Shown: one piece after another, positions 26,541 to 61,655 of the stretch
Position numbering within the stretch: position 1 is the stretch's first letter
Layout of the letters: each line of letters opens with the position of its first letter
Source: Pseudomonadota bacterium
GTDB taxonomy: Bacteria > Pseudomonadota > Gammaproteobacteria > Steroidobacterales > Woeseiaceae
Reading direction: 5' to 3'
NCBI GenBank assembly: GCA_022572185.1
Contig: JACZWL010000014.1
Span: 1 to 64,000, forward strand
Length of the DNA: 64,000 nucleotides
The notes under the pieces: generated by a model
Database searches by the model: none
Told to the model about the DNA's origin: nothing
What the model saw: only the letters and a program-made list of their open reading frames with translations
Position numbers and translations under genes: made by a program

Positions 26541-26554
26541 GTCAGGTCCCTCGT

Positions 26555-30335: not shown

Positions 30336-30356
30336 GATCAGGGGCTCTTTGTTGAA

Positions 30357-34724: not shown

Positions 34725-35554
34725 GTGCGCGAGTCCCCAGCAAGCTCAAGGCAAGCGACTACAAGTCGGACACCCGCCCTGTCTGGTGCCCGGGTTGCGG
34801 CGACTTTCATGTGCTTCACAGCCTGACCAGGGCGGTTGCACAAATTGCCTTGCGGCCGGAGGAAATCGCCGTGATTTCAGGCATCGGCTGTTCTTCGCGA
34901 ATCCCGGCTTATCTGAACTGCTACGGGTTTCACGGGCTGCACGGTCGTGCGCTGCCGCTGGCCACCGGCGTCAAAGTAGCTCGTCCGGATCTGACGGTTA
35001 TCTGCGCCGGCGGCGATGGCGACGGATTCTCGATCGGCGGCAACCACTTGCTACACGCTTGCAGACGCAACATCGATATTACTTATATCGTCATGGATAA
35101 CGAGGTTTACGGCATGACCAAGGGTCAGCCCTCGCCCACCACGGCGCCTGACTGGGACAGCAAGATCGCGCCCGGCGGCCCGGGCATTTCACCTTTCTAC
35201 CCACTGGTGATCGCACTCGCATCCGGGGCGAATTTCGTCGCCCGCGCATTCTCCGGAGATCCGAATGGCACGGCACAGATCCTGGTCGATGCGATCGAGC
35301 ACCCCGGCTTTTCATTCGTGCAAATATTAAGCCCCTGTGTAACTTTTCGACCGGACCAAAGGGAATGGAAGAAACAGGTTCATCCCGCACCCGTGACACC
35401 AACGTCAGACGCGGCCCAGGCAGCAAGACGGGTTATGACCGATGACGGCTTCAACATCGGCGTCTTGTACAAAGGCTCGCGCGAACCGTACCGGCAGACC
35501 GTCGGACAGGAGATCAGGTTTGATCGCAACATCGATGAGGAGTTTCTGATTTGA
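34721..35554 (+). CDS. korB: 2-oxoacid:ferredoxin oxidoreductase, beta subunit
   Basis: A 277-residue ThDP-binding subunit. CPGCGDFHVLHSL and GIGCSSRIPAYLNCYGFH provide cluster cysteines, GGDGDGFSIGGNHLLHACRRN is the ThDP/Mg motif, and MDNEVYGMTKGQPSPTT follows. It pairs with the upstream alpha-gamma subunit (ATGA overlap). It transfers electrons from 2-oxoacid oxidation through its cluster to ferredoxin. It is shorter than the second KorB (328 residues). Confidence 0.92.
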   Translation: MSARVPSKLKASDYKSDTRPVWCPGCGDFHVLHSLTRAVAQIALRPEEIAVISGIGCSSRIPAYLNCYGFHGLHGRALPLATGVKVARPDLTVICAGGDGDGFSIGGNHLLHACRRNIDITYIVMDNEVYGMTKGQPSPTTAPDWDSKIAPGGPGISPFYPLVIALASGANFVARAFSGDPNGTAQILVDAIEHPGFSFVQILSPCVTFRPDQREWKKQVHPAPVTPTSDAAQAARRVMTDDGFNIGVLYKGSREPYRQTVGQEIRFDRNIDEEFLI

Positions 35555-36113: not shown

Positions 36114-36902
36114 ATGACAGACGGCCCCCTGAAATCCTGGCTTGAGCGCGATAAGCAAGTCCTGCGATTGCAACTGGCGCAGCCAAAGGCAAACATCATC
36201 GACGCCGCAATGATCGATGCTCTGACGACCGCGCTCGCGAAACATGTTGCCAATTCACGCCTGATGGCGGTCGTGCTGGACGCCGAGGGTCCGAATTTCA
36301 GCTTCGGCGCCAGCGTCGAGGAACATCTGCCCGGGCAGTGCGCCGGAATGGTAAGAAAACTGCATGCACTGATCACGCAGATGATCGTATACCCGGTCCC
36401 GATCGTCGCCGCCGTGCACGGTCAGTGTCTCGGCGGAGGGCTGGAAGTCGCCTGCGCCGCCAATCTCATCATCGCCGCCCCGGATACCAGGCTTGGCCAG
36501 CCCGAGATTTCGCTCGCGGTCTTCGCGCCTGCAGCCTCCTGCCTGTTGCCGGAGCGCATCGGGCAGTCACAGGCGGAAATGCTGCTGCTGTCTGGTCAGA
36601 GCGTCGATGCGGACAAGGCCAGACAAATAGGCCTGGTCGACGAGGTCAGCGATGAGCCCGCGCAAGCAGCGCTGGCATGGATCGACGCAAACATTATTGG
36701 CAAGAGCGCGAGTTCACTGCGGATCGCAGTGACTGCTGCACGCCATGATTACATTGCACGGGTCAAGGAAAAACTTCAGGCCGTCGAGGCAATGTATCTC
36801 GATGAACTCATGAAAACCAACGACGCGGTCGAAGGTCTCAATGCGTTTCTCGAGAAGCGCAAGCCTGTCTGGGATAATACTGTGCCGGGAGCTGATCAAT
36901 GA
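36114..36902 (+). CDS. dch: Cyclohexa-1,5-diene-1-carbonyl-CoA hydratase
   Basis: A 262-residue crotonase-fold enzyme with [19 protein letters not shown], the Dch-type signature in place of the usual oxyanion block, and [23 protein letters not shown]. It adds water to the dienoyl-CoA made by benzoyl-CoA reductase, giving 6-hydroxycyclohex-1-ene-1-carbonyl-CoA. GAGG precedes the ATG, and the had start overlaps its stop by ATGA. Its neighbours (had, oah, bcr) make the assignment firm. Confidence 0.92.
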
Positions 36903-37966
36903 ATGCGTACCGCTGGGTGATGGAGGAACCGGGCAAGCCGTTATCCAGGGTGAGATTCGAGCCCGATGAGCCTGACACGAACGAGGTTGTGGTTGCGATT
37001 GCCGGTTGCGGCGTCTGTCACACCGACCTCGGCTTCTATTATGACGGTATCAGGACGAAGCACCCGTTACCGCTGACCCTGGGTCACGAAATCAGCGGAC
37101 GCGTAATCAGCACCGGCCGTGACGGCGCGCAGTGGCAAGACAAATCGGTCGTCATCCCGGCCGTCATCCCCTGTGGTTCCTGTGATCTTTGCGATCGCGG
37201 CCGCGGCACCATCTGCAGAAACCAGAAGTCACCGGGCATCGATATGCACGGCGGCTTCGCAACGCATATCACCGTGCCATCGGCAGGGCTCTGTGAGATC
37301 GACACGGCGCGACTGGCCGAAATCGATATGGAACTGGCAGACGCGAGCGTCGTCGCTGACGCGCTGACGACTCCGTATCAGGCAGTCGTGCAGGCAGAAG
37401 TAGAACCGGGAGACCTGGCTGTTGTCATCGGCGTCGGCGGTGTTGGCGGCTACGCCGTACAACTTGCGCATGCCAAAGGGGCGACCGTAGTCGCAGTCGA
37501 CGTTGATCAGGGAAAGCTTGATCGGCTCAAGGACTTCGGCGCGAGCATGGTGATCAATGCGCGTGAAGTACAGGGAAGGGATCTAAGAGACGCGGTCCGG
37601 CAATTCGCGAAAGATCAGGACTTGCGACAGACGGAGTGGAAGATCTTCGAGTGCTCAGGCACCGCGGCCGGTCAGGCGAGCGCTTTTGGCCTGCTGACCT
37701 ACGGAGCATGCCTGTCCGTCGTGGGCTTCACGATGGAGAAACTCGAGGTCCGCTTATCCAAGCTGATGGCGTTTCATGCTCGCGCCCTGGGCAACTGGGG
37801 TTGCTTGCCGGAATACTATCCCGACGCACTCGAATTGGTGCTGACCGGCAAAGTATCCATGCTGCCGTTCATCGAGCGGCACCCCCTGTCCGAGATCAAC
37901 GAGATATTTGCCAGGGCGCATGACGGCAAGCTGGCCGGGCGCGCCATCCTCGTGCCGGATGAATAG
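36899..37966 (+). CDS. had: 6-hydroxycyclohex-1-ene-1-carbonyl-CoA dehydrogenase
   Basis: A 355-residue zinc alcohol dehydrogenase. [15 protein letters not shown] and [11 protein letters not shown] give catalytic zinc ligands, [17 protein letters not shown] the structural zinc cysteines, and [20 protein letters not shown] the NAD site. In the pathway it oxidises the 6-hydroxy group to the 6-oxo compound that Oah hydrolyses. It follows dch with a 4-base overlap. A GNAT gene overlaps its 3' end. Confidence 0.93.
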
Positions 37967-42602: not shown

Positions 42603-43940
42603 ATGTCTGATTCTGCGGCCCCGGCATTAAGCAGTAATGTCGTTGCCGAAGTCATCGACAATGGCCAGATCAGCGGCCAGCAAATCCTCGTTGTCGGGCT
42701 CTGCATGTTTTTCAATATGCTCGATGGTTTCGACATCACAGCGATGGCGATTGTTGCCACTGCCGTGTCACAGGAGTTGCAACTTACCGCTGACAGACTG
42801 GGCCTGATCTTCAGTTTTGCGCTTGCCGGCATGATGACCGGCGCGATGTTCCTCGCGCCGGTGTCCGATATTATCGGCCGCCGCAAACTGATTATTCTCA
42901 GCGTAACATTGGTTGGCGTATCCGTACTATTAACGGCCAACGCCACGACACTGACTGAATTTGTTATCCTGCGCTTCGTCAGTGGTCTTGGCGCGGGCGC
43001 CATGCTCGCGTGTCAGGCCACCCTGGCGGCAGAATACAGCCCCGAAAAATATCGTTCTTTATCTGTCGCCGCAACGACCGCAGGTTATCCGTTCGGCGCA
43101 ATGATGACGGCAGTTGTCGCCGGATTCATCATGCCGGAGTACGGCTGGCGCGGCATGTTCTGGTTCGGTGGCGGCGTCACGCTTACGATGGGCTTCGTCG
43201 CCTGGGCATTCATTCCGGAGTCACTCAAATATCTGCTGGAGCGCCGGCCGGCAAATGCATTGCAACGCATCAACAAGATTCTGCTTAAGTTGAAGAAGGA
43301 CACGCTTGACAAGTTGCCGGTGGTCGCGCGAGAGGCTGTCGGAAAAGCAAGAGGACTTGTCGGCACTATGACGAGTCTCCTCGCCAGGGAGCACCGGGTA
43401 GTAACGTTGATATTGTGGGCAAGCTTCTTCCTGTGTTTCGCAACGCTCTATTTTCTGATGAGCTGGATTCCGAAGCTGATGGAGCAGAGCGGCTATTCGG
43501 CTGAAACTGGCCATTTCGCGTTCTTTCTGTTCAACCTGGGTGGCGTCATCGGAATATTTACGCTGGGGGCGCTGTCGACTCGCTGGAAACTGACGAACCT
43601 GGTTTTTGTGTTCCTGTTTTCATCAGCCGTTTGCATGGTGATTTTTGCTTCCGCGCCGAATCAACTGACCTTTTTGCTGACCGTTATTTTCTTCATGGGC
43701 ATTCTTCAACAAGGCGGATTCACGGGCCTGTACGCAGTCGCGGCAAAGGTGTATCCCACGGAAATTCGCAGCACCGGAATCGGCTGGGCGATCGGCCTGG
43801 GCAGATCTGGTGCAGTGGTCGGCCCGGCCGCGGCCGGATTCCTGATCGCCGCGGGATTCAGCATGTCAGCCAACTATTATGTCTTCGCGGTGCCGATGGC
43901 CCTCGGCGGAATGATTTCCTACTGGCTGAAAGTGAAATAG
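42603..43940 (+). CDS. MFS transporter, aromatic acid:H+ symporter type
   Basis: A 445-residue, 12-helix protein. NMLDGFDITAMAIVATAV at the first helix carries the DGFD motif of the AAHS family (BenK/PcaK). The loop 2-3 motif is PVSDIIGRRKLIILS, and RFVSGLGAGAMLACQATLAAEYSPEKYRS follows. It imports benzoate, 4-hydroxybenzoate or relatives. GGAGG precedes the ATG. boxD starts just after its stop, so uptake and ring-cleavage steps are cotranscribed. Confidence 0.9.
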   Translation: MSDSAAPALSSNVVAEVIDNGQISGQQILVVGLCMFFNMLDGFDITAMAIVATAVSQELQLTADRLGLIFSFALAGMMTGAMFLAPVSDIIGRRKLIILSVTLVGVSVLLTANATTLTEFVILRFVSGLGAGAMLACQATLAAEYSPEKYRSLSVAATTAGYPFGAMMTAVVAGFIMPEYGWRGMFWFGGGVTLTMGFVAWAFIPESLKYLLERRPANALQRINKILLKLKKDTLDKLPVVAREAVGKARGLVGTMTSLLAREHRVVTLILWASFFLCFATLYFLMSWIPKLMEQSGYSAETGHFAFFLFNLGGVIGIFTLGALSTRWKLTNLVFVFLFSSAVCMVIFASAPNQLTFLLTVIFFMGILQQGGFTGLYAVAAKVYPTEIRSTGIGWAIGLGRSGAVVGPAAAGFLIAAGFSMSANYYVFAVPMALGGMISYWLKVK

Positions 43941-43956
43941 TTTGAGTCTGTCGTTG

Positions 43957-45513
43957 ATGCCTGTGAAATTAAAAAGCTTTGTCGGTGGCCGGTGGCACCA
44001 GGGGAGTGGCAAGACGGTCACCTTGCTCAACCCCGCGACCGAGGAACCGCTGGCCGAGACCAGTACCGGGGGTATCGATTTTAGGGCGGCGCTCACGCAT
44101 GCCCGATCCGTCGGCGGACCGGCGTTGCGCTCGATGACTTTCGCCGAGCGGGCGGAAAAGTTGCAAGAGCTCTATGAGGTGCTCTTCGCGAACAGGGAGG
44201 AGTTCATCGAGCTGTCGATCGAGAATGGCGGTAACACGAGAAACGACGCCAAGTTCGATGTCGATGGCGCGACTGCGACCCTGCTGGCATATGTCGATGT
44301 CGGCAAACAACTCGGCGACCGGCACCTGATCAATGACGGCGAGTCCACACAGATCGGCCGGACTCCCCGATACGCGGGGAAACATATCCTTACGCCGCTG
44401 CACGGTGCCGCTGTGCATGTAAACGCTTTCAATTTTCCGGCCTGGGGGATGATCGAGAAAGCGGCGGTCGCGTGGCTTGCGGGAATGCCGGTTGTCAGCA
44501 AACCGGCAACCAGTACGGCGCTGCTGGCACACCGCATGACTGAGATCATCATCGACTCTGCTGTGCTCCCCGAGGGCGCGTTCTCTTTCATCGCCGGATC
44601 TGTTGGTGACTTGCTCGAGCATCTGGGTCCTCAGGACGTGCTTGCTTTCACGGGCTCGGGAGACACCGCCGCGGTGTTGCGCCGTCTTGACGCGCATACC
44701 AAACAATCTGTGCGCGTCAATGTCGAGGCTGACAGCCTCAACGCTGCGGTGATGGGTCCCGATGTCGAGGCCGGCAGCGAGACATGGCAGATGATGCTCA
44801 ACGAGGTCGTAACAGATGTGCGACAGAAAGCCGGACAGAAATGTACGGCGATTCGCCGCGTGTTCGTGCCACCTGCAAAACTGGAGTCCTTTAGCGATGC
44901 CCTTGGGGAAAGGCTGGAGGATATCGTGATCGGCAATCCGGCCGAGGCCAGCGTTCGCATGGGACCTCTTGTCAGCGCAAATCAGCTCGACGATGTCAGG
45001 GCAGCCATCGAGGTGCTCCAGGGACAGACAACTAAAGTAACGGGCAGTCTGGAACCGGAAGAGCTGCTCGGTATTCAAGTGGGCAAGGGATACTTTCTGA
45101 CACCGCATCTGTTCCGCGTGGATGATGCCGCATCGGCTCCAATCGTGCATGAACGAGAGATCTTCGGCCCCGTCGTCTCGGTTTTGCCCTACGAGGACAC
45201 CGGGACACTTATTAATAGCTGTGCTGCAGGCGGTGGCTCACTCGTCTCATCGGTGTACTCGGACGACCGCAATTTCTCCCGCGAACTGCTGATCGGACTC
45301 GCCCCGTTCAACGGCAGGCTGACGCACGGCAGCAGCAGAGTCGCCGGCATCTCGCCGGGTCCCGGCACGGTGATGCCAATGCTCGTGCACGGCGGACCCG
45401 GCCGGGCGGGTGGTGGCGAAGAGCTCGGTGGTTTGAGGGGCCTGTCCTTTTACATGCAGCGCACAGCGGTGCAGGGATACAGTGCCCTGTTGGACAAGTT
45501 CTTTCCGGACTGA
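43957..45513 (+). CDS. boxD: 3,4-didehydroadipyl-CoA semialdehyde dehydrogenase
   Basis: A 518-residue ALDH of the PaaZ/BoxD type: FVGGRWHQGSGKTVTLLNPATEEPLAE at the N-terminus, HVNAFNFPAWGMIEKAAVAWLAGMPVVSKPAT, FTGSGDTA, EADSLNAAVMGPD, and RQKAGQKCTAIRRVFVP with the catalytic Cys. Length and this Cys context match BoxD, which oxidises the semialdehyde formed by BoxC in the aerobic benzoyl-CoA pathway using NADP. It is cotranscribed with an aromatic-acid transporter but separated from boxBC by ~16 kb. ATG 43957 is used; a TTG at 43942 is the alternative. Confidence 0.9.
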   Translation: MPVKLKSFVGGRWHQGSGKTVTLLNPATEEPLAETSTGGIDFRAALTHARSVGGPALRSMTFAERAEKLQELYEVLFANREEFIELSIENGGNTRNDAKFDVDGATATLLAYVDVGKQLGDRHLINDGESTQIGRTPRYAGKHILTPLHGAAVHVNAFNFPAWGMIEKAAVAWLAGMPVVSKPATSTALLAHRMTEIIIDSAVLPEGAFSFIAGSVGDLLEHLGPQDVLAFTGSGDTAAVLRRLDAHTKQSVRVNVEADSLNAAVMGPDVEAGSETWQMMLNEVVTDVRQKAGQKCTAIRRVFVPPAKLESFSDALGERLEDIVIGNPAEASVRMGPLVSANQLDDVRAAIEVLQGQTTKVTGSLEPEELLGIQVGKGYFLTPHLFRVDDAASAPIVHEREIFGPVVSVLPYEDTGTLINSCAAGGGSLVSSVYSDDRNFSRELLIGLAPFNGRLTHGSSRVAGISPGPGTVMPMLVHGGPGRAGGGEELGGLRGLSFYMQRTAVQGYSALLDKFFPD

Positions 45514-45595: not shown

Positions 45596-46807
45596 TTATT
45601 TGAGGTTCGCCAAATCTGAACCCGCCGGTTTCTGGTACAGGCGCAGCCCGAATTCCGGCACGATTGCCAGCAGGTGATCGAAGATGTCCGACTGGATATC
45701 TTCGTAGGCAGCCCATTCTGTCGTGTTCGTGAAGCAGTAAATCTCCAAAGGCAGTCCCTCGGGCCCCGGGGCGAGCTGACGAACCATCAGCGTCATGTCC
45801 TTGTGGATTCTCGGATGATTCTTCAGGTAGTTGTACGCGTACGCGCGAAATGTGCCGACGTTCGTCAGCCGCCGTCTGTTCACTTCCGCGTCCACTTCGG
45901 TCGCGAGTCCCGCATTGTAATCGGCCAGCTCCTGTTCCTTGTTCTTGACGTAGTCTTTCAGCAACGCGAAACGTGTGAAATGATCAACTTCGTCTTGCGT
46001 CTGGAAACGGATCGACGACACGTCGATAAAAATCGCGCGCTTGATCCGCCGGCCGCCTGATTGCGACATGCCCCGCCAGTTCTTGAACGAGTCCGTGATT
46101 AACCGGTGCGTCGGGATCGTGGTGATCGTCTTGTCCCAGTTTTGCACCTTGACGGTATGGAGCTGCACATCGACCACGTCGCCATCCGCGCCGAACTGCG
46201 GCATCTCGATCCAGTCGCCCACGCGGACCATGTCCTGCGCGGTGAGCTGCACGCTGGCGACCAGTGACAGGATCGTGTCCTTGAACACCAGCAGCAGGAT
46301 AGCGGTCATCGCACCGAAGCCGCTGAGTAGCAACAGCGGAGAGCGGTCCAGTACCGTCGCTACGATCAGCACGCCGCCGAGAATCCAGACGACGATCTGC
46401 ACGAGTTGCACGAAGCCCTTTAGCGGACGTGCCTTTGCCAGCGGCGAGGCCGCGTAGATCGTGCTCGCCGCGCTCAGCATCGCGGTCAGCGCCAGCGTCA
46501 ACATCAATACCATGTAGCCCGTCGCAACGTTGCGCAGGACCTGCGCGCCACCTGCGGGCAGACCGGGCACGAGCGGCACGCCGACAAATACGATCAGCGC
46601 CGGCACGACCTGCGCCAGGCGACCGAAGACGTTGTGCGTGACCAGGGTGTCGTCCCAGCTGATCCTGGATCGTTTGGCGAAGGCGCGGACTGTGGCGACT
46701 AAAACGCGCTTGACGATCAGGTCGATGATGACCGCGCCCGCCAGCAGCGCCAGCAGGCCCACGCCGGGCGGCAGGAGGGGGTGAATCGTACCGAGTTGTT
46801 CGAACAT
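45596..46807 (-). CDS. MscS-family mechanosensitive channel
   Basis: A 403-residue membrane protein with five hydrophobic segments (about 15-36, 70-85, 92-115, 135-152 and 156-180) followed by the MscS beta-domain: VRVGDWIEMPQFGADGDVVDVQLHTVKVQNWDKTITTIPTHRLI, a classic YnaI/YbdG-like signature. It releases solutes on osmotic downshift and is unrelated to the catabolic genes. A ~100-residue C-terminal region with charged helices follows. No partner gene is apparent. Confidence 0.88.
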   Translation of the reverse strand: MFEQLGTIHPLLPPGVGLLALLAGAVIIDLIVKRVLVATVRAFAKRSRISWDDTLVTHNVFGRLAQVVPALIVFVGVPLVPGLPAGGAQVLRNVATGYMVLMLTLALTAMLSAASTIYAASPLAKARPLKGFVQLVQIVVWILGGVLIVATVLDRSPLLLLSGFGAMTAILLLVFKDTILSLVASVQLTAQDMVRVGDWIEMPQFGADGDVVDVQLHTVKVQNWDKTITTIPTHRLITDSFKNWRGMSQSGGRRIKRAIFIDVSSIRFQTQDEVDHFTRFALLKDYVKNKEQELADYNAGLATEVDAEVNRRRLTNVGTFRAYAYNYLKNHPRIHKDMTLMVRQLAPGPEGLPLEIYCFTNTTEWAAYEDIQSDIFDHLLAIVPEFGLRLYQKPAGSDLANLK

Positions 46808-47098: not shown

Positions 47099-49315
47099 AT
47101 GATATTTTTTTCCAATAAATCAAGGCTTTATCATCTTGGTCCCTACCCGCTGGAACGTCTCGCCCGGGATCCGGACATCCTGGGCCAGGAAATCGATTTG
47201 CCGAAGAGCATCCGGCCGACCGTCGATACGAAACAAGTGGACGGATTCAGCGAATCGATTGCAAAGTATCACCAGATTTTTCATTCGCTGCGGGACGACG
47301 ATCCTGTAGCGGCAAGAGCGCCCGTTCCAGACGATCTGCACAGACGCATGATCGACATCAAGGGTTCGGCCTATTTCCTCAATGCCAGTCAGGTGGCGAT
47401 CTGTTCGCTGGCAGATTCATGCTGGCTGGATGATGCGACACCGCAGGATCATGGCCTTGCGGTTGTCGTGCTGGTGGAACACAGCCGAGTACCCGAGAAC
47501 GGGTCCTTAGCACAGTCCTGGGTAGCGGACTCCGTGGCCGAAGCTGCCGAGTTCCGCGCGTATGAAATCGCCATCAGCATCGCAAACCATATTCAGCTGA
47601 TGGGTTACTCGGCCGTCGCACACGACGGCCAACACGGTGACGTTGATCTCGAACGCCTGACTGTCATGGCGGGACTTGGCGTGCGCTCCGGCGACAGAAT
47701 CCTGAATCCATATCTGGACGACCGGTATTCGATTTGTGCAGTGACGACGGATTACGAGCTTGCAACGGATAAGCCGCTTGATCCACATGCGGCCTCAAAG
47801 GCAAAAGGCATCGCTTACTGGTTCGGCGTCGGCGGTTCGACATCCGGTCTGGAGCGCTGGCGGCAATCGAGCAGACCGACTCACCTCAGCAAATTCGCCA
47901 TGGAAACGGTAGATCGTGTGGACAAACCAACGACGCTGATCATCGATGATGAAGTCCCGCGGGTGCCGAAGCGCGCGTCATTTTTCGATCGTGCGATTCA
48001 TGGCGACCTCGGCGAAAAGACGCAACGCGAACGCAGCCGATTTGCATTCAAGCATCCGTTTGCAACTGCGATGCTCAAGCAGATCGGCGCCATGGTGCCG
48101 CAGCAGGATGGACCGGTTGCGGAGCAAGTTGCCGCATCCTGCAGCGACGCGGAGGAAAACACGAGAGCACTGAAGTCACTGTCTTATTTCCTGGGTGCGG
48201 AGCTTACCGGGATTTGTGAAATTCCGAATTACGCCTGGTACTCGCATGGCGACGGCGGCGTACCAATCGAATGTCATCACAAGTACGCGGTCGTCATGTT
48301 GATCGATCAGGAGTACGACACGATGGAAGGTGCATCGGGTGATGATTACATCTCCGGCGCCCAGTCGATGCGCGCCTACATGCGAGGTGCAGTCGTCGCC
48401 GGTGTCATGGCGGATCATCTGCGATCACTTGGCTTTTCCGCCCGGGCCCAGACGAACGCCGATTCCGAGGTCCTGCACATACCTTTGATTCTGCTGGCCG
48501 GACTCGGCGAGCTGAGCCGCATCGGCGAACTGGTGCTGAATCCCTTCGTCGGCCCGCGTTTCAAGTCCGTCGTGATGACGACCGACATGCCGCTGGTAGC
48601 AGACAAGCCGATCGATTTCGGCCTGCAGTATTTTTGTTCCAATTGCCGGAAGTGCGCGCGCGAATGCCCTGTCGATGCGATCACCTGGGGCGACAAGGTC
48701 ATGTTCAACGGCTACGAAATGTGGAAGCTCGATGCTGAACGGTGCGCGCGGTACAGGCTTACCAATCAGCGCGGACTTGCCTGCGGTCGCTGCATGAAAG
48801 CCTGTCCACTGAATAAGGTCGTGACCTGGGATGGACCGATCGCGACCCAGGTCGCAAGCTGGCTCGGAATCAATGCACGATGGCTGAAGCCGCTGCTGGT
48901 GCCGATTGCTACCCGGCTTGACGACTTGCTCGGACACGGTATTCGTAATCCGGCAAAAAAATGGTGGCTCGACCTGGAAATCGTGGACGGTGTGTGCGTG
49001 CTGCCGCCGCATGGTGTCAACAAACGGGACCTCAATCTGACGCGTTATGTCGATCCCGAGAAACAGAAAATTGCATACTACAATGCCGATCTCATGCCGC
49101 CACCCAACAGTCACGGTATTCCTTACATACCGAACCGCAAAGAGGCAATCGCCGCCGCGAAACTACTGGAAACGCCGGCAGAAGCATTGGCTCGCGTTAA
49201 ATCCGGCGGCCCGACGCCAAAACACTATGTGCCGACGCCGCTCATCCCGGAATCCGAATTGCGGCAAGCGGATAACACATTGTTTGATCCGTACAAAAAA
49301 ACAGGTTCCAGGTAG
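47099..49315 (+). CDS. Cytoplasmic (catabolic-type) reductive dehalogenase, duplicated-domain
   Basis: A 738-residue protein with no Tat signal. A first RdhA-like domain (about 60-270) lacks cluster motifs and seems vestigial; a second (about 330-510) has matching blocks, e.g. SMRAYMRGAVVAGVMADHLRSLGFSARAQ, GLGELSRIGELVLNPFVGPRFKS and MTTDMPLVADKPIDFG. Two [4Fe-4S] motifs follow: Cys513-x2-Cys516-x2-Cys519-x3-Cys523-Pro and Cys549-x12-Cys562-x2-Cys565-x3-Cys569-Pro. This is the layout of cobalamin-dependent NpRdhA/BhbA-type dehalogenases, which act on halophenols and halo-hydroxybenzoates. No fused C-terminal reductase is present, so a separate donor is needed. Lack of a membrane anchor argues against a respiratory role. 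Confidence 0.85.
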   Translation: MIFFSNKSRLYHLGPYPLERLARDPDILGQEIDLPKSIRPTVDTKQVDGFSESIAKYHQIFHSLRDDDPVAARAPVPDDLHRRMIDIKGSAYFLNASQVAICSLADSCWLDDATPQDHGLAVVVLVEHSRVPENGSLAQSWVADSVAEAAEFRAYEIAISIANHIQLMGYSAVAHDGQHGDVDLERLTVMAGLGVRSGDRILNPYLDDRYSICAVTTDYELATDKPLDPHAASKAKGIAYWFGVGGSTSGLERWRQSSRPTHLSKFAMETVDRVDKPTTLIIDDEVPRVPKRASFFDRAIHGDLGEKTQRERSRFAFKHPFATAMLKQIGAMVPQQDGPVAEQVAASCSDAEENTRALKSLSYFLGAELTGICEIPNYAWYSHGDGGVPIECHHKYAVVMLIDQEYDTMEGASGDDYISGAQSMRAYMRGAVVAGVMADHLRSLGFSARAQTNADSEVLHIPLILLAGLGELSRIGELVLNPFVGPRFKSVVMTTDMPLVADKPIDFGLQYFCSNCRKCARECPVDAITWGDKVMFNGYEMWKLDAERCARYRLTNQRGLACGRCMKACPLNKVVTWDGPIATQVASWLGINARWLKPLLVPIATRLDDLLGHGIRNPAKKWWLDLEIVDGVCVLPPHGVNKRDLNLTRYVDPEKQKIAYYNADLMPPPNSHGIPYIPNRKEAIAAAKLLETPAEALARVKSGGPTPKHYVPTPLIPESELRQADNTLFDPYKKTGSR

Positions 49316-49385: not shown

Positions 49386-49449
49386 AACCGATAATGGTGC
49401 GATTTCCGGGCTATCATTGATTTCTTATGTTTTCGCAATTCTCATAGCC

Positions 49450-50265
49450 ATGGAGCGGAACAATTCTGATTCGGTAAAGGCGCGGCCGTCGGCGACCGTC
49501 GTTCTGGTGCGCGAAGGCGAGTCTGATCCCGAGATCCTGATGGTCAGGCGTAAGGCCGGAGATGCGTTCGGGGACAGTTACGCATTTCCGGGCGGTGTCG
49601 TGGACGATGATGAATCTCAGGCGCTGGCCTTTTGCCGGGGCACAACGACGGAACAGGCAGACGCGGCGCTGGGGCTGCCGAGGGGCGGGCTGGATTTCTA
49701 CAGCGCTGCCGTCAGAGAGCTGTTTGAGGAGACCGGTGTTTTGCTGGCACGAGATTCGCAAGGTGACTGGGCTTTTTCGGGCGATCAGGATGCCGAATCA
49801 TCGCTCCGTGAACTGCGCGGGCAGCTCGACAGCGGTGTCCTGTCGTGGGCAGAGATATTGCGGACGCACGATCTTCGTATCGCCTGCGATGCCCTGCATT
49901 ACTTCAGCTTCTGGGAGACGCCGTTACGGCTGCCCAAACGATGGGCAGCGCGTTTTTTCCTCGCGGAAATGCCACCCGGTCAGGATGCACAACACGATGG
50001 CAGCGAAATAACAGACAGCTGCTGGATGACGGCTGCGGAGATATTGTCAGTTGGCAAAGAAGCTGGAATGAAGCTGCCATTCCCGACGCTGAGCAATCTA
50101 AGGAAAATTTCGGAGTTCAGAACCGTCGATGAGCTGCTGCGCTGGGCGAGCGCTCAGGCGGCAGAAGGTATCGCAAAAATTCGGCCAGTCATCCTCCAGG
50201 ACAACGGCAAGACGCGATTCGTAATCCCGGGAGATCCGGGTTATCCGGAAGGCGAAGATCAATGA
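49450..50265 (+). CDS. Nudix hydrolase, NUDT19-like with split motif
   Basis: A 271-residue hydrolase. RPSATVVLVREG begins the fold, GDSYAFPGGVVDDDE starts the Nudix box, and AVRELFEETGVLLA completes it after an insertion of about 35 residues. A similar insertion within the Nudix box is known from NUDT19/RP2p proteins that hydrolyse CoA and acyl-CoA. This could trim aryl-CoA or CoA, but that is inference. ATG 49450 is used; a TTG at 49417 would add a hydrophobic leader. Confidence 0.8.
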   Translation: MERNNSDSVKARPSATVVLVREGESDPEILMVRRKAGDAFGDSYAFPGGVVDDDESQALAFCRGTTTEQADAALGLPRGGLDFYSAAVRELFEETGVLLARDSQGDWAFSGDQDAESSLRELRGQLDSGVLSWAEILRTHDLRIACDALHYFSFWETPLRLPKRWAARFFLAEMPPGQDAQHDGSEITDSCWMTAAEILSVGKEAGMKLPFPTLSNLRKISEFRTVDELLRWASAQAAEGIAKIRPVILQDNGKTRFVIPGDPGYPEGEDQ

Positions 50266-50325: not shown

Positions 50326-50745
50326 ATGAAAAGTAAATTTGTTGTGACAGTGGAATTTGGCGAAACCGATCCCGCAGCCATTGTCTTTTATCCGAATTTT
50401 TTCCGTTGGTTTGATGCAAGTGCTTGGCGCCTGTTTGCCAAAGCAGGGTTGACATTCGATGTTTTTCGGGAAGAGTTCGGGCTTATCGGTGCGCCGATTG
50501 TCGAGGCAAGATCAAAATTTATCAAACCTTTACGTTTTGAAGACTCGATCGAGATAACCAGTTACGTGGCATCATGGAAACAGAAGACTTTCAACCTCGT
50601 ACATGAAGTACGCAAAGATGGCGAAGTGTGTGCAGAGGGGCTGGAAATACGCGTCTGCGCAGAACGCCTGAAAGACGGATCCCAGGGCATTCGCGCAGTA
50701 CCTATCCCGGACGAAATAAGAAAGCGCCTGTCTGCAGACGACTGA
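50326..50745 (+). CDS. 4-hydroxybenzoyl-CoA-thioesterase-like hotdog protein
   Basis: A 139-residue single hotdog domain. VEFGETDPAAIVFYPNFFRWFDASAWRLF aligns with the Pseudomonas CBS3 4-hydroxybenzoyl-CoA thioesterase, including the catalytic Asp in ETDP and the helix ending RWFDAS. Later blocks IGAPIVEARSKFIKPLRFEDSIEI and WKQKTFNLVHEV also match. That enzyme completes hydrolytic dechlorination of 4-chlorobenzoate. Here it lies near a reductive dehalogenase and could release 4-hydroxybenzoate or recycle CoA. Other aryl-CoA substrates are possible. Confidence 0.85.
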   Translation: MKSKFVVTVEFGETDPAAIVFYPNFFRWFDASAWRLFAKAGLTFDVFREEFGLIGAPIVEARSKFIKPLRFEDSIEITSYVASWKQKTFNLVHEVRKDGEVCAEGLEIRVCAERLKDGSQGIRAVPIPDEIRKRLSADD

Positions 50746-54111: not shown

Positions 54112-55146
54112 TTACACGACTTTAAGCCTATGACGCGGCCGCATTCGAAGTTGTGGCAGGCCGGCGATTTCCCTGAGTACGGCGGTCACATATTGCACGG
54201 TCATCTTGCCGCGCCACGACGCGGCAAAATCCGTGTTGTCCATGGGCCGCGCGATCTTGTGCGCGACATGTGCGATTTCTGCAATTCCGTCCTCAGACAT
54301 TTTGTTGCCGACAAGAACGGTATCAATCTCGGCAACAGGCATCGGGGCAGACCCGACCGCACCCAAATACATTGAAGCGCGAGTCACAACATCGTTGTCG
54401 TCGGTCCACACGGCAGCCGCTACAGACAGCGTGGAGAAATCGATGGAACCGCGCCTTCTCAACTTCCAGAACGCGGATCGACAATGATCGCTGTCGCTGC
54501 TACCGGGAACGAGCACTTCGGTCAGGATCTCATCAGGCTGCTTGGCAAGATAGTCGATGCCATCATCCACATACATATCGGCCAGCGGCAGTTCCCGCCT
54601 GGCCGACGCAGAGACCAGTCTTACTTTTGCATCGAGTGCGCAAAGAATCGGTGCTGAATCGCTGGCAGTGTGCGCCCAGCATTTCGGTGACTTGGTTGCC
54701 ACCCAGCAGATCTTGCCGTCTTCCTTGAGACAATAGTCTATCGAACGACGCCATTCTTCGGTCTGGTTGTAATAGGTGCAACGGGTATCCACGCAGAGAT
54801 TGCCGCCGATGGTGCCCATGTTTCGCAGTGGTGGAGAAGATATCGAGGCGACGGCGACGGCAAACGCAGGAAAGCGTGCCCGCAGCTTGTCGTCGCGGAT
54901 GATATTCGCAAGCGTTGCGGTGGCACCGATCCGCATGTTCGCGTTCGCCGAATCAATCGAATCGAGATCCGGAATGGACATCAGGCTGACGACGGTATCG
55001 GCCTTTTGATGACGGCGCTTCATATTCGGCCACAGATCGGTCCCGCCGGCAACCAGGCGAGCGTTGTCGTCGGACGTCGCAATCGCCTTCGCCGCAGCCT
55101 GCACGGTGGTCGGCGCGACGAGCTTAATCGGTGGTAAGCGTAGCAC
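54112..55146 (-). CDS. hcrB: 4-hydroxybenzoyl-CoA-reductase-like FAD/4Fe-4S subunit
   Basis: A 344-residue FAD-binding subunit of the CO-dehydrogenase/xanthine dehydrogenase medium-chain type: RLVAGGTDLWPNMKRR and RNMGTIGGNLCVDTRCTYYNQ (FAD site). Cys123, Cys139, Cys147 and Cys156 lie in an inserted loop; their spacing (16-8-9) equals what I recall for the [4Fe-4S] ligands of Thauera HcrB (122, 138, 146 and 155). This insertion is diagnostic of 4-hydroxybenzoyl-CoA reductase, where it takes electrons from ferredoxin. The GTG start lies within the hcrA-like gene (23-base overlap) with GGAG upstream. Confidence 0.87.
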   Translation of the reverse strand: MLRLPPIKLVAPTTVQAAAKAIATSDDNARLVAGGTDLWPNMKRRHQKADTVVSLMSIPDLDSIDSANANMRIGATATLANIIRDDKLRARFPAFAVAVASISSPPLRNMGTIGGNLCVDTRCTYYNQTEEWRRSIDYCLKEDGKICWVATKSPKCWAHTASDSAPILCALDAKVRLVSASARRELPLADMYVDDGIDYLAKQPDEILTEVLVPGSSDSDHCRSAFWKLRRRGSIDFSTLSVAAAVWTDDNDVVTRASMYLGAVGSAPMPVAEIDTVLVGNKMSEDGIAEIAHVAHKIARPMDNTDFAASWRGKMTVQYVTAVLREIAGLPQLRMRPRHRLKVV

Positions 55147-57682
55147 TGCTGTGCTCCTTCAACGCGTCTTCGCGTTTTTTCATCGTGCCGGACGCAGAGC
55201 GCAATCCTTTTTTGCTGGCCTTCGGGTCGTTCGCCGCGCGGCCGTCGCCACCCTGTGCGGGCGTGTGTACAATGAGCGGTTCCCCGTAGTCGACGTCTGG
55301 AAAACTCGTGGGGCCGACGCGAGGATCGCGTCCGTTTTTCTTCGCCTGCAATCCTTTCAGTATGAAGTCCGGGTGAATCGGCACCTGGTCCACGCGTACG
55401 CCGACGGCATCGAATATCGCATTCGCCAGCGCCGGCATGATAGGCAACAACGGACCCTGACCCGCTTCCTTGGCACCGTACGGGCCCTGTTCATCGTCTG
55501 TCTCGATCATGTAGCAGGTCATTTCCGGCATGTCATGAAAGCCGGGGCTCTTGTATTCGAGCATCGAAGGCATTTTGTGCACGAGTGCACCAGACAGGCG
55601 CTTCGGCAGACGGCGGAAGGCCTGTTCTTCCATGACGGCCTCGCCCAGGCCCATGTAAATGCTGCCTTCGATCTGCCCAAGCGCAAGGACGGGATTCAGC
55701 GCGCGGCCGATGTCGTGTGCCATCCAAACCTTGATGACCTCGTATAAGCCAGTCTCCGGATCGACCTCGACTTCCAGCACGCTGGCGGAGTAAGAGTAGG
55801 TGGGTGATGGCCCGACGCCGGCGCCGCGATAGCGGCCGGGCGCGCGTGGCGGAATATACGAACCGGTCGTGCCAAGTGTGCCGAAACGGGATTCCGCAAT
55901 AACGACCGCCTCACTGAATTCGATGGCGTTCTCCGGCTCATCGGCTGGAAATACCGTCCGGTTCGCAAAAACCAGGGAATCCTTCGGCACTTCCATATGC
56001 TCCGCGACTGCCTCGGCGATTTTGTCGCGCGCTCTCTCCGCGGCTTGTTTTGCTGCGTGGCCGACCATGAGCGTCACGCGCGAAGAATAGCTGCCGAGGT
56101 CTACCGGTGTCAGGTCGGTGTCGCCGACACACAAGCGTATATCTTTCAGATCGATGCCCAGGACCTCGGCGACCACAACGGCAAGTATGCTGTCCGAGCC
56201 CTGTCCGATCTCAGTCTCGCCGCAAAAGACCGCAACGTTGCCGCTGCGATCCAGTTTAATCTGGACGCCCGACTGCGGCATGTGATTCCAATAAATGGGC
56301 AGGCCGGCACCCGTCATGTAAGCGCTGCATGCAAGCCCGAGTCCACGGCCTTCCGGCAACTTCCCGTAACGCTCTTTCCAGCCGCTTCCCCGGACGACGG
56401 CCTCGATACACTCTTTCAGTCCGATCGTCCCGATCTGCAACCAGTTTGCCGTGATCGTATTCGGTTCCAGGAGGTTCCGCAGGCGCAGCTCTGCCGGGTC
56501 GATTCCCAGTCTGTGAGCCGCCTTGTCCAGTTGAACCTCGAAGCCGAATCGCGGTTGCGGCGTTCCATGACCTCGCTTGGGTCCGCACGGCGGTTTGTTG
56601 GTAAAAGCGCGTGCGCCCTCGAACCAGTAATTAGGCAGTTTATAGGTCGTCGTCTGCAGTGCACCCGTGTAGTAAGTGCTGGCGACGCCATAACTGCCGT
56701 ATGCGCCACCATCGAGTGTCGTTCTCAGATGCTGCGCGGTCATCGTGCCGTCTTTCCTGAATCCGGTCTTCAGATGCATCTGCACCGGATGGCGGCCGCG
56801 GTGGCAGTAGAACACTTCCTCCCGGGTCAACGTGATCTTGGCGGGCCGGCCCAGCTTGAGCGCCAATTTGGCAACCACGATTTCATGATTAAACGGATCG
56901 CTCTTGCCGCCGAATGCGCCACCGTTCGAACAGGCTATTACCCGGATGCGCGAAGCTGGTATGTCGAGCGTCTTGGTCAGGGCACGATGCACGTAATGCG
57001 GACATTGCGTCGATGAATACAAGGTGACGCGATCATCATCTTCTGCAAAGGCAATGGCCGAATGCTGTTCCAACGCCAGGTGGTTGCTGCCTTCATAGAA
57101 GAAGTTGTCTTCCAGGATGATATCTGCCTGCTCCATGCCTGCTTCGACGTCACCGAATTTCAGTGAGACCTTCTTATGTATGTTGCCGTCATCGGCATAT
57201 TCATGAATCTGTGGTTCGGGCGTGCAGAGCGCTTCCTCCACACTGGAAATAGTCAGCAGAGGTTCATATTCGACTTCGACTGCCAGAGCTGCGGCGTGCG
57301 CGATGTCCTCGGACACCGCTGCAACTGCGGCCAATGCGTCGCCAACGAATCGAACCGTATCGACTGCCAGCGCATGTTCATCTTCCGATACCGGCAAGAT
57401 GCCGAACTTGTCCGGTAACTCTTCGCCGATAAGCGTGCCCAGTACTCCTTCCATTGCGAGCGCGGCCGAGAAATCAATGTTCTTGATCCTGGCATGCGGC
57501 ACGGTACTTCGAACAAGCTTGACGTAGGCCGTGCGCGGGAACTGCACGTCATCCGCGAATTGCGTCTGGCCGGTTACCTTGGCACGACCATCGACACGTC
57601 GAAACGGCTTGCCGATGATCTTGAGTTGGCTTTCGGTAGCGTCGGCCAACTCATCGTTTAATTTCGAAATTGCTTTGACCAT
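55124..57682 (-). CDS. hcrA: 4-hydroxybenzoyl-CoA-reductase-like molybdopterin subunit
   Basis: An 852-residue large subunit: an N-terminal aldehyde oxidase a/b hammerhead (IGKPFRRVDGRAKVTGQTQFADDV), then Mo-binding domains with FGGKSDPFNHEIVVAKLALKLGRPAKITLTREE, GGAYGSYGVA and GEAVMEEQAFRRL. It is longer than Thauera HcrA (~770), mainly at the C-terminus. It would remove the para-hydroxyl from 4-hydroxybenzoyl-CoA, giving benzoyl-CoA. AGG precedes the ATG. Related Mo-hydroxylases exist, so identity rests chiefly on the adjacent HcrB-type cluster loop. Confidence 0.85.
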   Translation of the reverse strand: MVKAISKLNDELADATESQLKIIGKPFRRVDGRAKVTGQTQFADDVQFPRTAYVKLVRSTVPHARIKNIDFSAALAMEGVLGTLIGEELPDKFGILPVSEDEHALAVDTVRFVGDALAAVAAVSEDIAHAAALAVEVEYEPLLTISSVEEALCTPEPQIHEYADDGNIHKKVSLKFGDVEAGMEQADIILEDNFFYEGSNHLALEQHSAIAFAEDDDRVTLYSSTQCPHYVHRALTKTLDIPASRIRVIACSNGGAFGGKSDPFNHEIVVAKLALKLGRPAKITLTREEVFYCHRGRHPVQMHLKTGFRKDGTMTAQHLRTTLDGGAYGSYGVASTYYTGALQTTTYKLPNYWFEGARAFTNKPPCGPKRGHGTPQPRFGFEVQLDKAAHRLGIDPAELRLRNLLEPNTITANWLQIGTIGLKECIEAVVRGSGWKERYGKLPEGRGLGLACSAYMTGAGLPIYWNHMPQSGVQIKLDRSGNVAVFCGETEIGQGSDSILAVVVAEVLGIDLKDIRLCVGDTDLTPVDLGSYSSRVTLMVGHAAKQAAERARDKIAEAVAEHMEVPKDSLVFANRTVFPADEPENAIEFSEAVVIAESRFGTLGTTGSYIPPRAPGRYRGAGVGPSPTYSYSASVLEVEVDPETGLYEVIKVWMAHDIGRALNPVLALGQIEGSIYMGLGEAVMEEQAFRRLPKRLSGALVHKMPSMLEYKSPGFHDMPEMTCYMIETDDEQGPYGAKEAGQGPLLPIMPALANAIFDAVGVRVDQVPIHPDFILKGLQAKKNGRDPRVGPTSFPDVDYGEPLIVHTPAQGGDGRAANDPKASKKGLRSASGTMKKREDALKEHSSATLTTD

Positions 57683-57690: not shown

Positions 57691-58272
57691 CTAGTCGGGA
57701 ATCTCGCTTCCCATGAAAAGCGCTTCAGCGGGTCGCCAGTCGTCACCTCTCTGTTTTGCCGCCGCCCACTTGACTGCTTCGATGATGCGGTGGTAACCGG
57801 TGCAGCGACAGATATTCCCGGACAGCGCTTCCGCGATCTGCTCGTTATCCGGCTCGGGCTCGTTCTCGAGCAGTGCCTCCGCCACCATCAGGATGCCGGG
57901 TGTGCAGTAGCCGCACTGCGCGGCGCCAAGATCGGCAAATGTCTCCTGCAACGGATGCAGGTCATTGCCCTTTTGCAGCCCCTCAACCGTCCGAATCGAC
58001 TTGCCGATGACATCCGTCGTTATCTGCAGGCAGGACAGGACCGGCTTTCCATCTACCAGCACAGCACAGGCACCGCACTCGCCCAGCTCACAGCCGTGTT
58101 TGGTGCCGGTGAGCTGACATTCCTCGCGCAGGACTTCGAGCAAAGTATGATGGCTCGGGAATACAACCGGATACTCCTCGCCGTTGACCTTCAGTACCGC
58201 CGCGGACATCCCATCGGGAATGCCTGGCGGCATTCCGGTTCCCTTCCCTCTGGCCTTATGGGTTGACGGCAT
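57691..58272 (-). CDS. hcrC: 4-hydroxybenzoyl-CoA-reductase-like 2[2Fe-2S] subunit
   Basis: A 193-residue small subunit. The plant-type cluster motif is CELGECGACAVLVDGKPVLSC; the second is QCGYCTPG followed by GNICRCTGYHRI. These hold two [2Fe-2S] clusters passing electrons between FAD and Mo sites. It has ~30 extra N-terminal residues compared with the usual ~160. It starts just after the korB stop, in the same operon, so ferredoxin-dependent supply of electrons to this enzyme is a natural inference. Confidence 0.88.
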   Translation of the reverse strand: MPSTHKARGKGTGMPPGIPDGMSAAVLKVNGEEYPVVFPSHHTLLEVLREECQLTGTKHGCELGECGACAVLVDGKPVLSCLQITTDVIGKSIRTVEGLQKGNDLHPLQETFADLGAAQCGYCTPGILMVAEALLENEPEPDNEQIAEALSGNICRCTGYHRIIEAVKWAAAKQRGDDWRPAEALFMGSEIPD

Positions 58273-58273
58273 T

Positions 58274-59260
58274 TCAGGTCACCGTCCAGGTATTCGTACT
58301 ACGCAGTGCATCGGCTACGCTGCTGCTTCGCTTCAGTCCGCTCTTGCGTGCGGCGTACCAGGACTTCTCGAAACTGTCACCCGGGCACTTGTAAATCACG
58401 CCGAGCGCGACCGGCTTGGCAAGTTCAACAAGCAAATGCGCGACCACTTTGTTCCTTTCATCGTGTCGTAACACCTGCTCGGGAACGGATCTGGCATCGA
58501 TCACCTCCAGCGAAAAATCATCCGGGTTGAAGCGAATGCCTTTTTCGTTGTCTGCGCCAAACAACATTGGCTTGCCGTGCTTCAGTCGCAGCTGTTTTTC
58601 AGCCGCATTTTTCCGATCCGTGAAGTCTGCAAATACATCTTCATTGTAGACGATGCAGTTCTGGAAAATCTCTACCAATGCAGCACCCTCAAATGCATGT
58701 GCCTCTTTCAGTACGTCCCCGAGACCTGCCTTGTCCGTATCGATCGCTCGCGCAAAAAACTTCGCGCCGGCGCCCAGCGCAAATTCTCCTGGTGACAACG
58801 GCGCATCGACCGACCCGCCCGGGCTCGACGGCGACCTTGTTCCCCGCCGGGAAGTAGGCGAGTACTGGCCCTTGGTCAGTCCGTAGATCTCGTTATTGAA
58901 AAGCAGGATTTTCAGGCCGACGTTGCGACGCAGCGCATGCAGCAAATGATTGCCGCCGATCGACAGGCCATCGCCATCACCCGTAACTACCCAGACATCG
59001 ATGTCGGGATTCGCCAGCTTGAGCCCTGTCGCGATCGCCGGAGCTCGCCCGTGAATGGTGTGAAAGCCGTAGGTTTCGACGTAATAGGGAAAGCGCGATG
59101 CACAACCGATGCCGGAAATAAATGCAGTTGACTCAGGTCTTGCACCAAGCTCGGCCAGCGTTTTTGTCATGGTTTTCAGGATTGCATAGTCCCCGCAGCC
59201 CGGGCACCATCGCACCTCCTGCGAAGTTGCGAAGTCTTTGGCTGACAGCACGGTACTCAT
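58274..59260 (-). CDS. korB: Second 2-oxoacid:ferredoxin oxidoreductase, beta subunit
   Basis: A 328-residue subunit with WCPGCGDYAILKTM, SGIGCASRFPYYVETYGFH and GDGDGLSIGGNHLLHALRRN (ThDP), then NNEIYGLTKGQYSPTSRRG. It is longer than the first KorB and has an added C-terminal segment. Length and layout resemble the two-subunit KorAB of aerobes such as mycobacteria, which tolerate oxygen better than clostridial types. It overlaps korA by ATGA, downstream of box genes and upstream of the hcr-like genes. Confidence 0.9.
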   Translation of the reverse strand: MSTVLSAKDFATSQEVRWCPGCGDYAILKTMTKTLAELGARPESTAFISGIGCASRFPYYVETYGFHTIHGRAPAIATGLKLANPDIDVWVVTGDGDGLSIGGNHLLHALRRNVGLKILLFNNEIYGLTKGQYSPTSRRGTRSPSSPGGSVDAPLSPGEFALGAGAKFFARAIDTDKAGLGDVLKEAHAFEGAALVEIFQNCIVYNEDVFADFTDRKNAAEKQLRLKHGKPMLFGADNEKGIRFNPDDFSLEVIDARSVPEQVLRHDERNKVVAHLLVELAKPVALGVIYKCPGDSFEKSWYAARKSGLKRSSSVADALRSTNTWTVT

Positions 59261-61155
59261 CGAGCTTCGCCTTTCGCTACCGGCTTACAGGCTGCCACCA
59301 CGACTGGCGGCAGCATCGATTCCATCTTTTCCGCCAACTCCGAGATCAGGAACGGCTGGCCGGTTACCTTGCAAAACGGCGTCGGATCAGCGCCAAGCTG
59401 GTCGCGCAACACCGTCGACAGTTGTCCCATATTCATTTCGGGCACGAGCAGCTGATTGAAGTTGCCGAGAAGCCCGCCCAGATTTTCCGGCAGCGGAAAC
59501 AAATGCCGCAAGTGTGTGTAGCTGACGTCTGAATGTGTTTTGCGAATCTTCCGTACGGCCTGGAAGATCGATCCGTATGTGGATCCCCAGCCGATCACAA
59601 GCAGCTCGCCTTCCTGCGGCCCGAGTTCCATGGTTTGCGGCGGAATGAATCTGGCGACCGACTCGACTTTGGCGGCACGCATGTCGGTCATGCGTTGATG
59701 GTTGGCGGCGTCGTAGGAGATGTGGCCGGTATCGATATCTTTTTCGAGTCCGCCCAATCGATGCATGAGCTCAGGCATTCCCGGAGTTATCCACGGCCGA
59801 CCCTGTGTTTCCGCGTTGCGCTCGAAGGCCAGGCTCTGAGCATCTCGAGTATCGTCCGGCCCCGGCGCGGCATTGACCTCGATCGGCTCGATGTCATCCA
59901 TGTCCGGAATTCGCCACGGCTCTGCCGCGTTGGACAAGTAACCATCGCTCAGCAACAGGACCGGTGTCATATGCCGCAAGGCAATACGCACAGCTTCGAT
60001 TGCCACGAAGAAGCAATCACCCGGCGAGCGTGCCGCGATGACAGGTATCGGCGTATCGGCATTCCTGCCGTAAACAGCCTGGTAAAGATCGGACTGTTCC
60101 GTCTTCGTCGGCAGGCCGGTCGACGGACCACCGCGCTGGGAATTGACGATCACAAGCGGTAGCTCGGCATTGACGGCAAGGCCCATCGCTTCGGTCTTCA
60201 GCGCGATGCCGGGACCCGAGCTCGAGGTAACCCCAATGACACCACCGTAAGACGCGCCAATTGCCGCGCAAATGGCCGCAATTTCGTCCTCTGCCTGAAA
60301 CGTGCCGACACCAAGTTCACCGAGACGCGAAAGACGATGTAATAATGGCGATGCCGGCGTTATCGGGTAGGAGCAGAAGAGCACCGGCCGATCGGCCAGC
60401 TCGCCTGCCGCGGCGAGGCCCAGCGACAAGGCTTCCGCACCGGTAATGCCCCGGTATTCGCCGGCCGGCAGATCGGCTGTCCTGATTTTGAATCGGGGTA
60501 TCGCTTCCGATAGTTCGGCCGTTTCCCCAAAGGCGTGACCGGAATGCAGCGCCGCAAGATTAGCGTCGCGTACTACTTCCTTCCTGGCAAACTTTTGCCG
60601 GATCCAGTCTTCGATAGGCAGAAGGTCGCAGTCGAACATCCACATCAGCAGACCGAGCGCCCAGAAATTCTTGCAGCGACCGCCGTCACTCTTGGAGAGC
60701 CCGAACGGCTTTACTGCCTCGAGATTGAGCCGGCCGATATCAGCAGGTACAAGCTGGTAGCTATCCAGTTCCCCGGTATCCCGCGGGTCCTCAGCATAGC
60801 CCGCTTTGGTCAGATTGCGTGCCGTGAAGCTGTCGTTGTTGACGATCAGGAGCGCCCCGCTCGACAGTAATGGCAGACTGACTTTGAGCGCGGCCGGATT
60901 AAAGGCAACCAGGACGTCGGGTGCGTCGCCGGCCGTGGTAATCGGGCTCACGCCGATATTCATCTGATAGGCGGACACGCCAAAAGTAGTGCCGACGGGT
61001 GCGCGGATCTCGGCAGGGAAATCCGGAAATGTTGCAAAGTCCTTGCCGCTCAGTGCGGTGGAGGCGATGAACTGCGATCCCATGAGCTGCACGCCGTCGC
61101 CAGAATCACCGGCAAGGCGCACGACAATCGAATCCATTGATATCTGATCAGACAT
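59257..61155 (-). CDS. korA: Second 2-oxoacid:ferredoxin oxidoreductase, alpha-gamma subunit
   Basis: A 632-residue gamma-alpha fusion: VVRLAGDSGDGVQLMGSQF, AEIRAPVGTTFGVSAYQMNIG in the gamma domain and GEYRGITGAEALSLGLAAAGELADRPVLFCSYPITPASPLLH plus RGGPSTGLPTKTEQSDLYQA in the alpha domain. It clearly differs from the 582-residue KorA at 32976, so the two are not recent duplicates. It would oxidise 2-oxoglutarate or a similar acid and reduce ferredoxin for the hcr-like enzyme, for BoxB, or both. Confidence 0.9.
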   Translation of the reverse strand: MSDQISMDSIVVRLAGDSGDGVQLMGSQFIASTALSGKDFATFPDFPAEIRAPVGTTFGVSAYQMNIGVSPITTAGDAPDVLVAFNPAALKVSLPLLSSGALLIVNNDSFTARNLTKAGYAEDPRDTGELDSYQLVPADIGRLNLEAVKPFGLSKSDGGRCKNFWALGLLMWMFDCDLLPIEDWIRQKFARKEVVRDANLAALHSGHAFGETAELSEAIPRFKIRTADLPAGEYRGITGAEALSLGLAAAGELADRPVLFCSYPITPASPLLHRLSRLGELGVGTFQAEDEIAAICAAIGASYGGVIGVTSSSGPGIALKTEAMGLAVNAELPLVIVNSQRGGPSTGLPTKTEQSDLYQAVYGRNADTPIPVIAARSPGDCFFVAIEAVRIALRHMTPVLLLSDGYLSNAAEPWRIPDMDDIEPIEVNAAPGPDDTRDAQSLAFERNAETQGRPWITPGMPELMHRLGGLEKDIDTGHISYDAANHQRMTDMRAAKVESVARFIPPQTMELGPQEGELLVIGWGSTYGSIFQAVRKIRKTHSDVSYTHLRHLFPLPENLGGLLGNFNQLLVPEMNMGQLSTVLRDQLGADPTPFCKVTGQPFLISELAEKMESMLPPVVVAACKPVAKGEAR

Positions 61156-61645: not shown

Positions 61646-61655
61646 CACTGAATCC

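Follow-up and report, generated by a model that had tools for sequence, protein, structure and literature searches.

The window analysed here, a 64,000-nucleotide stretch of a marine Woeseiaceae genome, carries a gene (rdhA) for a predicted reductive dehalogenase amid genes of aryl-CoA metabolism, and raises the question of what kind of dehalogenase this is, on which substrate it would act and from where its electrons and cobalamin would come. NpRdhA-type enzymes are B12-dependent, have been crystallised and dehalogenate phenolic acids that carry bromine, iodine or chlorine. We consider the locus as a whole probably best explained by an unfused NpRdhA-type dehalogenase that would feed an aryl-CoA route, using a ferredoxin in trans and imported B12. 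On grounds of homology, confidence in the chemistry is strong; confidence in the pathway is moderate, and that in Kor as the electron donor is weak.

Table 1. Positions of the dehalogenase, its domains and neighbouring genes in the window (residue numbers refer to RdhA)
Feature	Position	Strand	Remark
BcrCBAD, ATP-dependent benzoyl-CoA reductase	25545..30395	-	
YfhL-type 2[4Fe-4S] ferredoxin, 82 aa	31443..31691	-	candidate electron carrier
KorA1/KorB1	32976..35554	+	
Dch + Had: dienoyl-CoA hydratase, 6-hydroxycyclohex-1-ene-1-carbonyl-CoA dehydrogenase	36114..37966	+	
MFS transporter, aromatic acid/H+ symport-like	42603..43940	+	candidate importer
BoxD-like 3,4-dehydroadipyl-CoA semialdehyde dehydrogenase	43942..45513	+	directly upstream of rdhA in L005
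MscS-type channel	45596..46807	-	between boxD and rdhA
RdhA, unfused catabolic reductive dehalogenase (predicted), 738 aa	47099..49315	+	ORF scan, TIGR02486, 4RAS match
RdhA vestigial repeat of cobalamin core	residues about 75-230		
RdhA functional cobalamin domain	residues about 341-510		
RdhA 2x[4Fe-4S] region	residues 513-573		
NUDIX hydrolase	49417..50265	+	3' of RdhA in 8 relatives
4HBT-family thioesterase	50326..50745	+	same position in L005, 76% identical
HBCR-like beta subunit	54112..55146	-	Cys-bearing insertion of 1RM6_B
HBCR-like alpha subunit	55124..57682	-	750.7 bits vs cut-off 994.6
HBCR-like gamma subunit	57691..58272	-	164.5 bits vs cut-off 257.8
KorB2, 2-oxoacid:acceptor oxidoreductase beta	58274..59260	-	
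KorA2, 2-oxoacid:acceptor oxidoreductase alpha	59257..61155	-	
BoxB, benzoyl-CoA 2,3-epoxidase	61656..63095	-	
BoxC	63098..64000	-	runs past window end

Family, fold and active site of the dehalogenase

The rdhA gene starts with ATG and its reading frame is uninterrupted. The product scored 196.2 bits against the NCBIfam model TIGR02486 (cut-off 160.35). Its best match among solved structures was NpRdhA of Nitratireductor pacificus pht-3B (4RAS; further entries 6ZXU, 6ZXX, 6ZY0 and 6ZY1), aligned at full length over residues 3–706 (620 bits, E=5e-185, 44% identity), and PceA-type structures were the next matches, restricted to the core. An AlphaFold model, built from 37 family members (mean pLDDT 82.7, pTM 0.89), has the same fold as 4RAS (TM 0.88/0.93), whereas TM scores were about 0.33/0.52 against PceA and about 0.20 (query-normalised) against QueG. 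No twin-arginine (TAT) motif was present, in that residues 1–60 contain no RR. A first-pass annotation had proposed a cytoplasmic catabolic enzyme of the NpRdhA/BhbA type, and the TIGR02486 score, the full-length 4RAS match and the absent TAT motif all agree with it. RdhA is thus predicted to be a soluble, cytoplasmic, corrinoid-dependent dehalogenase, with corrinoid binding predicted from the conserved fold and pocket residues.

Profile comparison with hhalign showed that the N-terminal half of the protein repeats its C-terminal half (residues 75–340 against 341–600; probability 99.8%, 29% identity, 151 columns). Together with the 4RAS fold match, this bears out the earlier description of a vestigial and a functional cobalamin-binding-like domain. 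Both of the [4Fe-4S] motifs that had been proposed were located after the cobalamin domain (C513/C516/C519/C523 and C549/C562/C565/C569). The N-terminal half is devoid of Fe-S cysteine motifs, and cysteines and catalytic set occur in the C-terminal copy only. The catalytic set S423, M424, Y427, K489 and R553 corresponds to S422, M423, Y426, K488 and R552 of NpRdhA, whose catalytic roles have been described (PMC7565698, PMC10463259). These five residues and the eight cysteines were invariant in 81 of 81 aligned two-domain proteins (the window RdhA and 80 homologues), in an alignment with 17% invariant positions overall. Compared with relatives at 78–82% identity, dN/dS was about 0.05 with dS saturated, indicating that rdhA is under purifying selection.

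That RdhA is QueG-like, or a corrinoid protein that has diverged and does not dehalogenate, is a very improbable reading of these data. It has the shared superfamily in its favour and nothing beyond, and the QueG values (TM about 0.20; 22.7 bits against an NCBIfam cut-off of 200), on which QueG identity was rejected, fall far below those obtained with NpRdhA. Moreover, the same genome has a separate QueG-like gene (L003), and the dehalogenase active site is invariant among the homologues.

No C-terminal PDOR reductase was found in RdhA, the C-terminus of which lies about 35 aa past the NpRdhA end point. Loss of a reductase fusion through assembly error or frameshift was rejected, since the homologues keep the unfused length and the gene adjacency recurs in other genomes.

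Placement among known dehalogenases

Relatives of RdhA were collected from GTDB genomes (217 found), and the best 80 of the 217 were used. In the tree used for placement, the unfused proteins formed one clade (100/100 support) with NpRdhA outside it, those with a fused PDOR (BhbA plus four more) formed a separate clade, and the window RdhA fell in a Woeseiaceae subclade of the unfused clade. The fused/unfused split was read from this careful tree, an earlier broad tree having had long outgroup branches. A phylogeny had been suggested as a check in the first-pass annotation; it sets the protein apart from both NpRdhA and the BhbA clade, with QueG excluded by scores and fold. Catabolic RdhAs fall into two published subfamilies, one of them unfused and including NpRdhA (PMC10463259). 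The window RdhA is a further member of the unfused one, in a clade for which the literature searched yielded no assays. The absence of a fused reductase, which had been regarded as an oddity, is real; it is no anomaly, because NpRdhA is unfused too (PMC10463259) and the unfused proteins form a published subfamily.

With NpRdhA, the window protein also shares the domain order including the vestigial repeat, the catalytic residues, N452 and the cluster cysteines. It differs in its clade, in the pocket changes K307R, P311A and A419G (common to most of the clade), in the lack of an adjoining ferredoxin/ferredoxin reductase gene pair and in the position of its gene amid aryl-CoA genes. The self-sufficient BhbA/JtRdhA type has the same core domains and catalytic residues and acts in aerobic catabolism, encoded next to genes for aromatic degradation, as is predicted here, but carries a fused PDOR (1069–1074 aa in the five examined), and core identity is only 38–40%. 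Respiratory RdhAs (PceA, CprA) have in common with it the functional cobalamin and 2x[4Fe-4S] core; unlike them, the window RdhA has the vestigial domain and no twin-arginine motif, and its similarity to PceA is low by TM score. The small TAT-less marine RDases (Ros_A3X954, PMC13101508) resemble it in being cytoplasmic, marine and non-respiratory, as predicted for RdhA, but are single-domain.

A protein of similar size to the small marine RDases is encoded in the same genome outside the window, on contig C70 (L112:7833-8813). This 326-aa single-domain RDase-like protein scored 95.7 bits against TIGR02486, under the cut-off, and its gene is flanked by an HPPD-family gene and a SNF-type sodium symporter gene; the locus suggests a relation to halotyrosine. 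Similar small RDase genes adjoin rdhA in L013, L025 (abutting), L042 and L049 and lie near it in L033.

The aryl-CoA island and the substrate

Ring-opening genes for 4-hydroxybenzoyl-CoA and benzoyl-CoA had been described close to rdhA. The aryl-CoA genes are real (Table 1), but those for 4-hydroxybenzoyl-CoA are not ring-opening, as HBCR dehydroxylates. The three subunits were named HBCR-like because all scored under the curated NCBIfam cut-offs (beta subunit 263.5 bits vs 404.6); an alignment of the beta subunit to chain 1RM6_B, from the solved structure of 4-hydroxybenzoyl-CoA reductase (1RM6), shows that it has retained the Cys-bearing insertion. Since the MscS-type gene intervenes, no co-transcription of boxD and rdhA is claimed for the window. 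The Rfam scan of the window returned zero matches. BoxB and BoxC are present, but genome-wide no BoxA candidate exceeded the cut-off, the top scorer (75.8 bits) being a CysJ-type protein. A different reductase may serve BoxB.

Several other genes were recorded in and around the island. A hemerythrin-domain gene (24973–25548) follows bcrD and a rubrerythrin-like gene (35551–36084) follows korB1, possibly for oxygen protection of the benzoyl-CoA reductase branch. A PnbB-like 4-hydroxylaminobenzoate lyase gene (61169–61648) is situated between korA2 and boxB, and adjoins boxB in L098 and L105 too. A gene of the phenylalanine/tyrosine ammonia-lyase or aminomutase family (18895–20571) has a TRAP transporter and a CoA ligase in its vicinity and could supply the island with phenylpropanoids. 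Just outside the window lies an FdxA ferredoxin gene (contig C80 67954-68277).

Linkage of rdhA to aryl-CoA genes was observed in two further Woeseiaceae genomes. In G091 (L005), boxD directly precedes rdhA, and NUDIX, 4HBT and HBCR-beta genes come next; in G004 (L012), rdhA and boxB are 7.5 kb apart and share their orientation. Across 107 family genomes, RdhA was found in 14, BoxB in 7 and both in 5 (P=0.0003, with relatedness and draft incompleteness ignored); in G049 the two are on separate contigs. RdhA was present in 3 of the 7 HBCR genomes and 3 of the 8 BcrB genomes, which is borderline with a P that ignores relatedness. Nine of the 14 RdhA-bearing genomes are without BoxB, so RdhA is not dependent on the Box pathway. 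G074 and G076 (L090–L093) provide a natural with/without comparison, as they carry the Bcr-Kor-Dch-Had / HBCR-Box island without RdhA, and in G074 the NUDIX gene is immediately next to HBCR-beta; the RdhA segment can therefore be read as a module accessory to the aryl-CoA island. The earlier proposal of a benzoyl-CoA island link accordingly stands for the window lineage, but not as a required or general one.

Most relatives carry RdhA outside the island; the rdhA genes of other Woeseiaceae are found amid FadB/FadJ-like, NUDIX and MBL genes. No recurrent operon partner was detected in the wider clade, where 56 operon-like neighbours represented 75 Pfam families, the commonest occurring in four. 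It is possible, though we hold it to be the less probable reading, that RdhA serves another aromatic or phenolic pool, such as halotyrosine-derived phenols or halophenylacetates, and that its position in the benzoyl-CoA island is incidental. The beta-oxidation-type setting of most Woeseiaceae rdhA genes, away from box and HBCR, and the very varied neighbours beyond the family would fit this, as would JtRdhA, which also acts on bromophenols and enables growth with 3-bromo-4-hydroxyphenylacetate (PMC10463259). The boxD-rdhA-NUDIX-4HBT-HBCR order in the second genome, boxB nearby in the third and the co-occurrence of RdhA with boxB argue against it.

The pocket offers a further indication. K307 of NpRdhA contacts the carboxylate in one bound form of 3-bromo-4-hydroxybenzoate, and 73 of the 81 aligned proteins have R at this position, which retains the positive charge and hints at carboxylated substrates for the window RdhA. 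By analogy with NpRdhA, ortho-halogenated phenolic acids would be the most likely substrate.

Electrons, cobalamin and the proposed route

A dedicated ferredoxin/FNR pair adjoining rdhA, as in the NpRdhA cluster, was rejected: when the 10 kb around the gene were searched in 79 relatives, by motif and with the BhbA PDOR domain, neither a ferredoxin nor a PDOR-like reductase proved to be conserved. The sole reductase match near relatives was weak (25% identity, L072), with no convincing ferredoxin outside the window.

The first-pass annotation had raised a Kor-reduced ferredoxin as donor, and the window does hold a 2[4Fe-4S] ferredoxin gene and two KorAB pairs. Over the 107 family genomes, however, RdhA and KorA2 showed no association (5/14 vs 29/107, p=0.52) and nine of the 14 RdhA carriers had no KorA2-like match, so Kor was rejected as a general RdhA partner. 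We regard it as unlikely that the donor is a dedicated KorAB-reduced 2[4Fe-4S] ferredoxin of the island. Such a donor would be consistent with the seven BoxB genomes, in which RdhA and KorA2 go together (5 both, 2 neither; 1 in 21 by chance), with Thauera, where KorAB charges ferredoxin for benzoyl-CoA reductase (PMC9973337), and with the finding that a foreign ferredoxin can supply electrons to NpRdhA (PMC10463259). The Thauera system equally explains the KorAB pairs without RdhA, since BCR and HBCR are both encoded in the window and suffice to account for them. Most simply, the donor would be a general low-potential ferredoxin, with KorAB one possible charger in the window genome; the Kor proposal is possible but not favoured.

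Neither CobS nor CobN was found in the genome, which is 96% complete. A cobalamin riboswitch (76.8 bits vs 31.5) was detected on contig C17 directly upstream of two genes, one for a btuB-like receptor (349 bits, which is under the model cut-off) and one for a PduO-type adenosyltransferase. Corrinoid transport or synthesis genes had been named earlier as a point to check; those present are salvage genes and, judging from them and from the missing CobS and CobN, the organism probably imports B12 rather than making it.

In the route that we propose, which is modelled on NpRdhA, an ortho-halogenated phenolic acid (e.g. 3,5-dibromo-4-hydroxybenzoate) would bind through its halogen to the cobalt of base-off cobalamin, which would be imported, not synthesised, while the phenolate would be held by K489, R553 and S423 and a proton supplied by Y427. 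Electrons would pass from the general ferredoxin in trans to the two [4Fe-4S] clusters, and the halogen would be released as halide. The product, probably 4-hydroxybenzoate, would be converted to its CoA ester and dehydroxylated to benzoyl-CoA by the HBCR-like enzyme, and the ring would then be opened by the Box or Bcr enzymes.

A broader interpretation, which we consider doubtful, is that the island forms a full low-potential route for halogenated 4-hydroxybenzoates, in which an O2-tolerant RdhA, HBCR and BCR would share one KorAB-charged ferredoxin pool and benzoyl-CoA could be opened either by Box, using O2, or by Bcr, which needs none. If true, a 2-oxoacid:ferredoxin oxidoreductase would supply the electrons for dehalogenation, as a physiological donor unreported for catabolic RdhAs in the literature searched.

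A dehalogenase gene next to product-degrading genes is a sensible arrangement and not a new kind of system. NpRdhA is the sole experimentally studied unfused catabolic dehalogenase in the literature searched, and no natural electron donor is reported for it (PMC10463259). More than 200 relatives of the unfused clade occur in public genomes, and many are marine. An rdhA that adjoins a full set of aryl-CoA genes, together with a ferredoxin gene and two enzymes that reduce ferredoxin, provides concrete, testable candidates for the natural substrate and donor. Common sediment bacteria may thereby be possible consumers of natural bromophenolic acids.
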